The notes below the pieces were generated by a model that was not told the origin of the DNA, did not search any database, and saw only the letters and a program-made list of their open reading frames with translations. Shown piece by piece: positions 28,307 through 35,632 of a stretch of 64,000 bases of DNA. Positions within the stretch are counted from its first letter, which is position 1, and each line of letters begins with the position of its first letter. Source of the DNA: Corynebacterium sp. (GTDB lineage Bacteria; Actinomycetota; Actinomycetes; Mycobacteriales; Mycobacteriaceae); NCBI RefSeq assembly GCF_030532195.1, contig NZ_JAUNLP010000007.1, positions 62,001 to 126,000 on the forward strand, written 5' to 3'. The translations under genes and the position numbers were made by a program.

Positions 28307-28361
28307 TGTTAGGGCCTTTCGTTGCTATTTTCCTCGCGGGCCCTTGGTGCTGTTTAAAGCG

Positions 28362-28402
28362 ACAAAAGAAAAGAGCCCGCTACCTATTTCTCGTGCGAGC
28401 TC
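28362..28402 (-). terminator. Trp attenuator terminator before trpB
   Basis: On the minus strand GAGCTCGC (28395-28402) pairs with GCGGGCTC (28373-28380, one wobble), followed by TTTTCTTTT (28362-28372). The 5' arm can alternatively pair with a GCGAGC just downstream of the leader peptide (about 28450-28455), giving the antiterminator expected when ribosomes stall at the Trp codons. Confidence 0.85.
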
Positions 28403-28460
28403 GTACGTGACGGGTTAGCCGTCAAGACTTAAAAGATGACGTGTGATATCGCTCGCCGGA

Positions 28461-28511
28461 TTATGCGAGCCACCACCACTTCGTGGGTGGAATAATCAGG
28501 GGTGTCATCAT
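28461..28511 (-). CDS. trpL: Trp leader peptide (TrpL)
   Basis: A 16-codon frame encodes MMTPLIIPPTKWWWLA with three consecutive Trp codons (TGG x3), the hallmark of ribosome-mediated attenuation. The Trp codons lie in one arm of a hairpin (CCACCCAC/GTGGTGG), and the attenuator terminator follows about 60 nt downstream. A -10-like TATTGT (complement at 28519-28524) ends 7 nt before the first ATG, so the leader mRNA is probably leaderless. Controls trpB by charged tRNA-Trp supply. Confidence 0.9.
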   Translation of the reverse strand: MMTPLIIPPTKWWWLA

Positions 28512-28656
28512 GAAAATGACAATAACTCATGTTTTCCGCCGTGAGCAAAGCCGGGGGAGTAATTGGGGGTCAGGCCGCGGCCTTGGCTACGGACGTGAGG
28601 CAGCACACGCGCCGTGATATCGACACCTTTGAGTCGGCAGACTAACGTCTATTCGA

Positions 28657-31146: not shown

Positions 31147-31908
31147 CTAGCTCCTTTGCGTAACAGCAGCCCGCAACGCACGTGCCGCTTCTTCCGGGTC
31201 TGCAGCATCAGTGAGCGCCCGTACCACCACGATACGCTCCGCACCAGCAGAAACAACGTCTTCGACGGTATCGGCATTGATGCCGCCGATAGCCCACCAC
31301 GGTTTTACAGGGTCGGCCGCGCCGCGGTCGTGGGGATGGACAATATCGGCAACTGAATCCTGATGAGATTCCGCGGAGCCCTGGGCACGCAGCTGTCGCA
31401 CCAGTGAAGCTGCCTCGGACACCGCATCAAGTCCCACCGGCTTACGGTCGGGTTTTGTCGGGGTGGCAAACACCGGACCAATTACGGCGTAGTCAATGCC
31501 ATCGTCGGCAAGCGAATCTGTAAACATCTCGATGGTGCGATTAGAACGACCCAGCAGGACCTCGGGGCCGACAATGCGGCGCGCCTGCTCGGTGGTGAGA
31601 TCTTCCTGACCGACGTGCAGAATGTCGGCGCCGGTCAGTGCGGCGATGTCGGCGCGGTCGTTGACGGCGAAGAGTTTGCCGTGTTCAGCAGCGACCTCGG
31701 CAAGGGTTTCCACGGCGGCGATTTCGTCGCGAGTGTCAATCTTCTTGTCGCGCAGCTGAATAATGTCGGTGCCGCCTTCGTAGCAGGCGTGCAGGAATTC
31801 GCGGAGATCGCCGCGGGTGGAGCGGGCGTCTGTGCACAGGTACAGACGGGCATCGGCTAGGAGTGCTTGGCGGGATGCGCGCGTGGCGCTGGATGCGGAG
31901 GCGTTCAT
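31147..31908 (-). CDS. thiE: Thiamine-phosphate synthase
   Basis: Couples hydroxymethylpyrimidine diphosphate with thiazole phosphate. 253 aa TIM barrel with the diphosphate-binding DIIQLRDK, the FAVNDRADIA segment, GADILHVGQEDL, GRSNR and the late WWAIGGINADTVEDV. It is divergent from the thiO operon. A -10-like TAGCAT ends 6 nt before its ATG, so it is probably leaderless and not under the riboswitch on the other strand. Confidence 0.95.
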   Translation of the reverse strand: MNASASSATRASRQALLADARLYLCTDARSTRGDLREFLHACYEGGTDIIQLRDKKIDTRDEIAAVETLAEVAAEHGKLFAVNDRADIAALTGADILHVGQEDLTTEQARRIVGPEVLLGRSNRTIEMFTDSLADDGIDYAVIGPVFATPTKPDRKPVGLDAVSEAASLVRQLRAQGSAESHQDSVADIVHPHDRGAADPVKPWWAIGGINADTVEDVVSAGAERIVVVRALTDAADPEEAARALRAAVTQRS

Positions 31909-31970
31909 GGCCCCATGCTAGGTGAGGTTTGCGATGCGGTGTCGAGCCACCGATGGGGAAAGTCTTATGA

Positions 31971-32098
31971 TGGGGGAGTACCAATTCCGCGGGAGCCACC
32001 CGGGATGCGTCGGCAAAAGTCATGCCGATGCCGTTGTGGCTGAGAGGGCGAGGAGCGCCGACCGCTTATACCTGATGCGGGTTATGCCGCCGGAGGGA
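31971..32098 (+). ncRNA. TPP riboswitch (THI element)
   Basis: The conserved pieces are in order: GGGGGAGT at the P1/P2 start, GGCTGAGAGGGC (pyrimidine-sensing arm), and ACCTGATGCGGGTTATGCCGCCGGAGGGAGG (the diphosphate arm, here quoted in three parts: ACCTGAT, GCGGGTTATGCC, GGAGGGAGG). The last segment contains the ribosome binding site of thiO, 3-10 nt before its ATG, so TPP probably blocks translation initiation. There is a longer P3-like hairpin insertion between 31985 and 32035. Confidence 0.93.
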
Positions 32099-32101
32099 GG
32101 A

Positions 32102-33292
32102 ATGGCAGTGAACGCTGCCACGACACGTGCTGCCGAAAAAGGCCAGGCAGGCAGGGAAAACACGTCGAAAAGCGCCGTCATCGCAGGCGCGGGCGTCATT
32201 GGCTTAGCGACGGCGTGGAGACTACTCCACAGGGGATTCGAGGTCACAGTCCTCGATGCCGAGCCCGTCTCGGGCGCATCATTTGCGGCCGCTGGCATGC
32301 TGGCGCCCGTCGCAGAAGTGGTGTGGGATCAGCCGACGCTGTACCCACTGATGGTGGAATCGGGCAAGCTCTACCGCGACTTTGCCCTGGCGATTGCGGA
32401 AGAATCCGGGCAGGATGTCGGTTATATCGAAAATTCCACCTTTGTCTGCGCAGGCGACTCAGCCGACCGCCAGACTTTGAGCGAGCTGGTGGAACTGCAG
32501 CATGACCTGGGCATGAACATCACCCGCATTACCGCCACCCAGGCGCGCCGGGCGGAACCAGCGCTGGGACCGGGCTGCGTGGGTGCTGTCGATATTCCAG
32601 GTGATCACCAGATTAATCCGCGCATGCTGGCCGATGCCTTGCTCACCATTTTGGGCGACCGCGTCGTCCGTACCAATGCTGCGGAGATTATCTATGCCGA
32701 GGGCAGTAGCCGTGCGGTGGGACTGCGCGGTGAGGACGGCACCGATTACCTCGCTGATGAAGTGGTGCTGGCTGCAGGTCTCAAGACCGGCGCAATCGCA
32801 GGTCTGCCCGAGAATCTCAATCTGCCACTGCGTCCGGTCTACGGCGATATCCTGCGTCTGCGCGTGCCGGAGCGCCTGCAGCCGCTGGTCACCCGCACTA
32901 TTCGCGGTGTGGTGCAGGGCCGACCGGTCTACATCGTCCCGCGTGCCGACGGTACCGTCGTCCTCGGCGCCACTTCCCGCGAAGATGACATGACCGGTGT
33001 CTCCGCGGAGGGCGTTCACCAGCTGCTGCGCGATGCCTACCGTCTGGTTCCGGGCATCCTGGACTGTGAGATCTATGAAATGACCGCCCGCGCACGTCCC
33101 GGCTCCCCTGATGATGTGCCTATGATTGGCCGCATTGTGCCAGGGCTGACCGTCTCCACCGGCTACTTCCGCCATGGCATTTTGCTCACCGCCATCGGCT
33201 CAAAAATCACTGCAGAAATTGTCGCCGGTGACACAAGCGCCACCGACTCGGCACTCATTCGGGCCGTCAACCCATTCCGCTTCAGCGTCTAA
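32102..33292 (+). CDS. thiO: Glycine oxidase ThiO
   Basis: FAD enzyme that oxidises glycine to the imine used for thiazole formation. 396 aa from ATG 32102, right after the riboswitch. FAD-binding motif VIAGAGVIGLATAWRL, then GASFAAAGMLAP, and the C-terminal TARARPGSPDDVPMIGR plus GYFRHGILLTA. The open frame extends upstream through the riboswitch, which is not coding. First gene of thiO-S-G-F. Confidence 0.94.
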   Translation: MAVNAATTRAAEKGQAGRENTSKSAVIAGAGVIGLATAWRLLHRGFEVTVLDAEPVSGASFAAAGMLAPVAEVVWDQPTLYPLMVESGKLYRDFALAIAEESGQDVGYIENSTFVCAGDSADRQTLSELVELQHDLGMNITRITATQARRAEPALGPGCVGAVDIPGDHQINPRMLADALLTILGDRVVRTNAAEIIYAEGSSRAVGLRGEDGTDYLADEVVLAAGLKTGAIAGLPENLNLPLRPVYGDILRLRVPERLQPLVTRTIRGVVQGRPVYIVPRADGTVVLGATSREDDMTGVSAEGVHQLLRDAYRLVPGILDCEIYEMTARARPGSPDDVPMIGRIVPGLTVSTGYFRHGILLTAIGSKITAEIVAGDTSATDSALIRAVNPFRFSV

Positions 33293-33310
33293 CTGAAAGG
33301 GCCAACTGAC

Positions 33311-34405
<1,095 letters not shown>

Positions 34406-34406
<1 letters not shown>

Positions 34407-35632
34407 TGGCAGATCACGGCAGCGCATTGAGTGATCGTGACCTGCGCAGGTACGCGCGTCACCTAACTTTGCCTGGCTTTGGTGCGCCAGCGCAGCAGGC
34501 GCTGCGACGCTCCCGCGTGCTGGTCGTCGGGGCAGGTGGACTGGGCTCGCCCGCGCTGCTGTACCTGGCTGCCGCGGGGGTCGGCCACATCACCATCATT
34601 GACGATGACGTGGTTGATGAGTCCAACCTGCAGCGCCAGGTCATCCACCGTGAGTCCGATATTGGGCGCCCCAAGGCCGAGTCCGCCGCCGATGCGGTGC
34701 GTCGGCTCGACTCGGAGGCCTCGGTCACGGCAATCGTCGGCAGGCTCAGCGTCGACAATGCGCTTGAGCTCTTCGCCGACCATGATGTGGTGCTTGACGG
34801 CGCGGACAACTTCGCCACTCGCTACCTGTCCTCCGATGCCGCCGAGCTGACCGGAACGCCGCTGGTCTGGGCCACAATTCTGCAATTTGTCGGGCAATTG
34901 TCCGTCTTCTGGCCAGGTCGTGGCCCCATGCTCCGCGATCTCTACCCCGACATTCCCGACCCCGGCTCCGTGCCCTCGTGCGCGGCCGGCGGAGTCCTCG
35001 GCGCGATGGTCGGCCAGGTCGGTTCGATGATGGTCGTCGAGGCAATCAAGGTGCTCACCGGCGTCGGCAACGTCGCTGTGGGCAAGCTTGTGCTTATCGA
35101 CGCCCTGGAGGCCACCACTCGGTCGCTGTCATTTGCCGCCGACCCGGAGCGCGAACCCGTCACCGACCTGACCGAGATGGCGCAGGTGTGCGCAGCGTCT
35201 TGGTCGGAGGACGATGCTGTCTCGGAGCCGAGTGTACGCAGCGTTGGCCCGCATGCGGTCGCGGAGTTGATCTCCCACGGCGCGACGGTGCTGGATGTGC
35301 GTGAGCCGGAGGAACACGAGCAGGCCGCCATCGCCGGATCAGTGCTGGTGCCACTCGGTGAGATTCGCAGCCGCGGTTGGGCTGCAGTCAATGAGGCGCT
35401 GGCCAAGGTCGACGGTGCAGAGCAAGTCATCGTTCACTGCCATTCCGGAGCGAGGTCGCAGCAGGCGATTGAGTTACTGAACAGTGAGAACACTGATGGT
35501 GAGGCTGAGGGCGAGGTCAAGGCGGAAGCGAAAAACAACGCCAAGCCCGAGCTAATCAACCTGGAGGGTGGCATTGTCGCCTGGCAGGCGGCGGGGCTGG
35601 GAACCGTCGTAAAGCGGGCTGACTTTGAGTAG
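34406..35632 (+). CDS. thiF: Sulfur-carrier adenylyltransferase ThiF/MoeB-type with C-terminal rhodanese domain
   Basis: 408 aa. The N-terminal E1-like domain has the nucleotide motif VLVVGAGGLGSPALLYLAAAGVG and DDDVVDESNLQRQ; it adenylates the ThiS C-terminus. The C-terminal rhodanese domain has the persulfide loop HCHSGARSQQ with Cys, and GGIVAWQAAGL. An acidic/Lys-rich insertion (TDGEAEGEVKAEAKN) interrupts the rhodanese domain. The fused layout is common in actinobacteria and may also serve MoaD. Confidence 0.92.

Follow-up and report, generated by a model that had tools for sequence, protein, structure and literature searches.

A conserved candidate tryptophan attenuator ahead of a stand-alone, probably indole-salvaging trpB in the Corynebacterium amycolatum group and Actinomycetaceae

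Attenuators of trp operons have been described in Corynebacterium and Streptomyces (Seliverstov 2005, PMC1262725); in the passages cited here, they combine two or three Trp codons with an overlapping antiterminator and a GC-rich terminator, and are located before trpB or trpE at the head of a biosynthetic operon. For C. diphtheriae trpB1EDGC, the same passages already report a leader on trpB ahead of the other trp genes, and a trp leader before C. diphtheriae trpB1 also appears in a passage of PMC5784534. In Bifidobacterium, trpB is shown to take up exogenous indole (a passage of PMC11085991). Here, a leader with the layout of the trp operon attenuators was analyzed in a 64,000-nt stretch of Corynebacterium DNA (contig NZ_JAUNLP010000007.1; hereafter, the window), where, in contrast to the operons above, it precedes a single trpB gene, named trpBx (Table 1). 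Judged by trpBx, the closest named relatives are C. amycolatum SK46 at 90%, a strain carrying the label C. vitaeruminis at 89%, and C. lactis at 86%, and the host is a skin-type Corynebacterium of the C. amycolatum group. The trpBx of the second of these strains (NZ_JVVM01000022.1) is itself of the amycolatum group, and its C. vitaeruminis label may be wrong.

Table 1. Positions of predicted features at the trpBx locus, in window coordinates
Feature	Position	Strand	Basis
-35-like TTGCTC, 18 nt before -10	28543..28548	-	weak match, assigned by position only
-10-like TATTGT, 7 nt before leader start codon	28519..28524	-	TAnnnT spacing across leaders; predicted leaderless start
Leader peptide ORF MMTPLIIPPTKWWWLA	28461..28511	-	sequence reading, promoter-spacing comparison, computed coordinates
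5'-end "lock" strand GATGAC	28504..28509	-	matched-versus-permuted pairing
Three tandem Trp codons	28470..28478	-	sequence reading
Strand 1, GGCTCGC	28465..28471	-	helix tests and coordinates
Strand 2, GGCGAGCG	28450..28457	-	helix tests and coordinates
Lock partner GTCATC, just after strand 2	28435..28440	-	matched-versus-permuted pairing
Strand 3, GAGCTCGC	28395..28402	-	comparison of leaders, helix tests
Strand 4, GCGGGCTC, 3' arm of terminator	28373..28380	-	comparison of leaders, helix tests
Terminator U-run	28364..28372	-	comparison of leaders; nine-base U-rich run, eight T
Strand 5, AAGGGCCCGC, conserved, complementary to strand 4	28336..28345	-	alignment of leaders
Shine-Dalgarno-like GAAAGG	28315..28320	-	coordinates, accessibility test
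Stand-alone trpB (trpBx), 456 aa	26936..28306	-	ORF and TIGR00263 profile

A preliminary description of this DNA had read at this position a complete Trp attenuator, comprising a 16-residue leader with three Trp codons and a GCGAGC/GCTCGC antiterminator pairing, ahead of a trpB without an adjoining trpA. Each of these elements was confirmed: the leader, strands 1-4, terminator, and U-run stand ahead of trpB, and the pairing is present in the window sequence. No trpA ORF flanks trpBx, whose neighbors at the locus are aminotransferase and TrkH genes, with no trp genes. Elsewhere in the window, a run of ORFs at 31147-35632 reads like thiamine genes (thiE, thiO, thiG, and thiF), named from translations only. 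The locus has two marks of a classical ribosome-mediated Trp attenuator, namely, a short leader ORF with tandem Trp codons and mutually exclusive 1:2, 2:3, and 3:4 helices with a U-run, the latter supported by conservation. By itself, the single window sequence proves little: the folding of the attenuator stretch gives a z of -1.51, TGGTGGTGG is common in the genome (81 occurrences, with the reversed pattern occurring 55 times), and p values against shuffles are 0.065 for the 1:2 helix and 0.075 for the 2:3 helix. The reality of the attenuator is carried by its conservation across relatives. All seven C. amycolatum-group genes examined, as well as six of eight Actinomycetaceae genes classed as lone, have a WWW leader (WWR in one) with aligned strands. 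Among 75 leaders compared, the 2:3 helix reaches p 0.05 or less against shuffles in 45 and the 1:2 helix in 31, four or more T follow the hairpin in 58, and the terminator arms, read by eye, vary together. A search of all 4227 Rfam families, including any Trp leader model, returned only a sub-threshold ctRNA match (E 0.076; 21.4 bits versus a gathering threshold of 50). Standard terminator and promoter scans returned nothing at the leader; since the terminator loop of 14 nt exceeds the tool's loop limit of 8, the empty terminator scan is no counter-evidence. As read from its conserved sequence, the element preceding trpBx is a genuine Trp attenuator, with a predicted termination step and a predicted response to Trp.

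In the proposed mechanism, the transcript would begin with the leader AUG. When Trp is plentiful, the ribosome would clear the WWW codons and the 3:4 terminator would form; with Trp short, it would stall on these codons and cover strand 1, so that 2:3 would form first and RNA polymerase would read into trpBx. Folding of the window RNA in the stalled state shows that 2:3 forms while strand 4 is absent. Once strand 4 is made, equilibrium folding prefers the terminator even in this state, and antitermination must therefore be kinetic. The U-run is absent from the leaders of A. denticolens, gaoshouyii, and timonensis (L049, L050, and L057), in which the 3:4 hairpin is present; termination may need another signal in these leaders, or their control may differ. 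For the same three, the automatic strand finder took a wrong hairpin in the 75-leader helix counts and in the terminator-arm comparison, and strand 3 was set by hand for the accessibility and lock tests. After the hairpin, 13 of the 15 leaders aligned for the window's type carry an exact GGGCCCGC (strand 5) and one carries a variant; strand 5 can pair with strand 4. This sequence is not rare (5 in the window versus 5.11 expected), its fixed position being the notable point. When the presence and absence of strand 4 are compared, the ribosome-binding-site accessibility of the window trpB responds (0.53 to 0.88), and 3% of shuffled controls show as large a change. Strand 5 as a general switch of the trpB ribosome-binding site was considered and dropped, most of 66 leaders tested showing no response. 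In two trpE leaders (L183 and L199), accessibility of the trpE Shine-Dalgarno is 0.68 without strand 4 and 0.01-0.02 with it, and strand 4 seems able to cover that site.

Upstream of the leader, a TAnnnT element precedes an in-frame leader start by exactly 7 nt in 51 of the 75 leaders, and does so in all 16 belonging to the window's type; the runner-up spacings cover 13 leaders (6 nt) and then 8. Among 11 further leaders, the spacing is 7 in two, 6 in eight, and neither in one. In C. glutamicum, TAnnnT is placed 3-11 nt before the transcription start (a passage of PMC3890552). This range, taken with the spacing of 7, places the expected 5' end of the RNA on the leader AUG or no more than a few bases from it, so that the message seems to open with the leader start codon, a predicted leaderless start. 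Pairing between the opening 14 nt of this mRNA and the segment after strand 2 is also better within a leader than between permuted partners (37 dereplicated leaders; mean 14.0 versus 10.8, a difference reached in 0 of 5000 permutations). When permuted within groups, this covariation gives z 7.1, with 5.3 for the 20 leaders of Actinomycetaceae type and 4.7 for the 17 of Corynebacterium, groups being set by locus number, which splits seven amycolatum-group leaders between the two. The test could use 64 of the 75 leaders, those left out having no TAnnnT at 6 or 7 nt or lacking another needed part. Other segments served as controls and gave values near zero, and other leader offsets gave low values, except for z 4.8 at +7 and 3.0 at -7, which overlap the start, and 2.2 at -21. 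In a held-out set of nine leaders the signal was weaker, with z 2.06 and 134 of 5000 permutations as high (p 0.03). Sequence by sequence, the helix is weak against chance (p 0.0775 in the window, and p 0.05 or less in only 3 of 16 leaders of its type); the claim rests on matched-versus-permuted pairs. The proposed role of such a lock is to hide the leader start codon once the first ribosome has moved on; alternatively, the same pairing could form a pseudoknot with 2:3 or support 1:2.

The remaining pathway was reconstructed by a search covering trpE, trpC, trpB, trpA, and trpD. This genome carries trpA and a second trpB, 55% identical to trpBx, on contig C12, within the series hisH-hisA-hisF-hisI-trpE-trpC-trpB-trpA-lgt-pyk (interrupted by one or two further genes; the his, lgt, and pyk assignments come from reading the translations), and trpD lies elsewhere on the same contig. 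The 600 nt upstream of the C12 trpE yielded no Trp leader. The preliminary description had pictured a strain living on scavenged indole and had set against that idea a complete trp operon with a second trpB elsewhere. A complete-looking set of that kind is what C12 holds; as trpE, trpC, trpB, trpA, and trpD are all present elsewhere, the strain need not live on indole, and trpBx would supplement a complete pathway here.

Among 126 TrpB proteins from the fetched loci, trpBx falls within one clade of 54, none of which adjoins trpA. Of the other 72, 64 adjoin trpA, six were judged cut by the end of the fetched DNA, and two are Oceanobacillus outgroup genes. In a 64-row tree, the seven amycolatum-group genes and 17 Actinomycetaceae genes group together (100/99), apart from 30 genes of other Corynebacterium, and a single Corynebacterium grouping is rejected (p-AU 0.007). 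The simplest reading is horizontal transfer, with old paralogy followed by losses as the alternative. Leader types agree with the tree, being WWWL in the amycolatum group and Actinomycetaceae and mostly WWWR in other Corynebacterium. The gene heads an operon (trpBx-trpE...) in nine Actinomycetaceae, three of them with a leader before trpBx, and in ten other Corynebacterium, all with a leader. A decaying remnant of a leader-trpB1-E-G-D-C-B2-A operon, with no present function, could be suspected, given that operons of this kind in Actinomyces and other Corynebacterium begin with the same gene; this is very improbable, as trpBx is intact, 85-90% identical within the group, and lone in all seven members, and its leader, promoter spacing, and strands are kept in all. 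The Corynebacterium sample came from a draw of 201 genomes of the genus, with 60 places fetched from the best-scoring ones together with second copies. Within it, all 20 lone clade trpB genes of other Corynebacterium lack a WW leader, which argues that attenuation is not essential to being stand-alone. Such clade genes without a WW leader occur at L147, L153, L155, L156, L158, L161, L164, L165, L169, L174, L177-L179, L184, L188, L190, L193, L195, and L198, some of them far from the trp operon. At four further loci (L048, L052, L054, and L056), trpBx itself starts 7 nt after TAnnnT and begins GTG ACG AC, as leader peptides do in relatives, and the trpE behind it has its own WWW leader; here, the attenuator looks to have been deleted, with the leader start joined to trpBx.

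At the protein level, trpBx belongs to the TrpB1 class: it scores 557.5 bits with the trpB equivalog profile TIGR00263 (cut-off 392.45), with catalytic residues kept, and 136.9 bits with the TrpB2 profile TIGR01415, below the cut-off of 518.85. H86, K87, E109, and D305 (Salmonella numbering) are retained in all 54 clade proteins and S377 in 53. The sites facing TrpA behave differently. R175 is present in 65 of 65 partnered TrpB versus 1 of 54 clade members; R175, N171, Q293, and others are lost across the clade, and the window's type retains K167. The window protein has V175 and D171, in place of the R175/N171 expected of a TrpAB beta subunit. The clade has lost 16 columns that are conserved in the 65 partnered TrpB, and 10 of these map to the alpha-facing ranges (Fisher 5.7e-6), which we take to be 16-20, 161-181, and 274-294. 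These ranges are partly backed by published contacts of beta Arg175, Ser178, Gly179, Ser161, and Gly162 with alpha loops (a passage of PMC8187860). As controls, comparison of partnered Corynebacterium with partnered Actinomycetaceae TrpB placed 0 of 17 and 0 of 16 columns in the alpha-facing ranges, and the reverse test (columns conserved in the clade and lost in partnered TrpB) placed 2 of 10 there (p 0.16). By eye, few of the LBCA Res6 residues given in a passage of PMC11917138, considered as a possible predictor of stand-alone activity, seem to occur in trpBx. A further draw of 151 family genomes, from which the best-scoring 30 loci were taken (four genomes, G206, G212, G216, and G218, were already in the first set), gave a concordant split: all 15 proteins encoded next to trpA carry R175 and none of the 15 others do, the latter all belonging to the trpBx clade and 14 having a WW leader. 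Ten of these 15 trpBx genomes have a single TrpB match, with trpA searched in one of the ten (G206).

Nine named genomes have a lone leader-bearing trpBx, five with trpA and trpD and four with neither. The four are Actinomycetaceae (A. mediterranea, S. canis, S. cardiffensis, and Schaalia sp. Marseille-Q2122); in each, the one trpB over the cut-off is trpBx, with its leader, and the search for trpE returned only weak chorismate-binding matches (E 1e-29 to 1e-31). All four share a trpC-lgt-pyk scar at the place that in A. culturomici and S. suimastitidis is taken by trpE-trpC-trpB-trpA-lgt-pyk, and such agreement in loss and scar among four genomes argues against gaps in the assemblies. At loci L200-L203, trpC (IGP synthase) is kept beside lgt without trpA, trpB2, or trpE. 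A trpA is carried by this genome and by three named relatives of the C. amycolatum group. Its presence here, along with retention of K167 in the window's group, would suit a spare beta subunit that works with the C12-cluster TrpA for more flux when Trp is short; the clade-wide loss of R175, N171, Q293, and other contacts and the persistence of trpBx in four genomes without trpA make this unlikely. Slightly less likely still is the use of some other beta-replacement substrate under a Trp attenuator inherited from a trp operon: it would also account for the lost TrpA contacts, but E109 and the other catalytic residues are invariant, and there would be no point in keeping a Trp-sensing leader, once the pathway is gone, if the product were an unrelated one.

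The stand-alone reading is supported by conservation of the leader and strands across genera, absence of an adjoining trpA throughout the clade, loss of interface residues, and co-retention in the four genomes. With a probability of roughly 0.74, trpBx would be a stand-alone TrpB that joins free indole, from neighbors or leaked inside the cell, to serine, and that is turned on by its own ribosome-mediated attenuator when charged tRNA-Trp is short, the termination, Trp response, and indole substrate being predicted from sequence. The enzyme is thus probably indole-salvaging, and in several Actinomycetaceae trpBx would be the only Trp-making gene left. The earlier picture of a strain living on indole falls away for this genome, but the idea of a Trp-controlled TrpB for scavenged indole is supported for the gene family, which never adjoins trpA, has lost TrpA-interface residues, and supplies the sole trpB of four genomes without trpA or trpD. 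A wider picture is put forward tentatively, at somewhat under even odds: regulated indole salvage by a stand-alone TrpB1 subfamily of Actinomycetaceae and the C. amycolatum group, the sole Trp-making gene in several, with a leaderless, locked leader, as would be the case for other Trp leaders of these families, such that about one ribosome would read each transcript.

These results offer a genome-based case for indole, a common signal in mixed communities, as a regulated Trp source for supposed Trp auxotrophs, naming both gene and switch. They also bring together TrpB enzymes that have naturally escaped from TrpA, a resource for studying the loss of allostery in TrpB. If real, the start-codon lock would give the textbook attenuator a further step, one that limits the number of times each transcript is read.

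A literature search of largely open-access papers found no prior report of a lone attenuated trpB or a 5'-end lock. For the trp operon attenuators of PMC1262725, a term search of the text found neither "leaderless" nor "promoter". Leader peptides without a ribosome-binding site, or leaderless, are represented by the C. glutamicum ilvBNC leader (cited in PMC4046766) and the mycobacterial poly-Cys leaderless short ORFs (cited in PMC13236596); these differ from the trpBx leader in sensing other amino acids, and the titles of the cited works name no 5'-end lock. Like trpBx, TrpB2_o (Merkl 2007, PMC1854888) is a trpB located outside operons beside an operon trpB; in contrast, trpBx is of the TrpB1 class, and passages of that paper place trpB1 in operons (most, or exclusively). 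The loss of Trp biosynthesis in Actinomycetaceae (PMC5404923) concerns the same family and the same loss as in the trpBx genomes; "trpB" and "tryptophan synthase" are absent from the main text of that paper, and its passages discuss no retained lone trpB. The trpRBA operon of Chlamydia trachomatis, in passages of PMC7755916 and PMC6302012, likewise represents an indole-rescuable, Trp-regulated synthase in a pathway-poor genome, but it keeps trpA and is controlled by TrpR and YtgR rather than by a ribosome-read leader. Attenuators on trp genes and the use of indole by TrpB are known, while a regulated lone gene as the sole survivor of the pathway, together with the lock, is open to direct testing.
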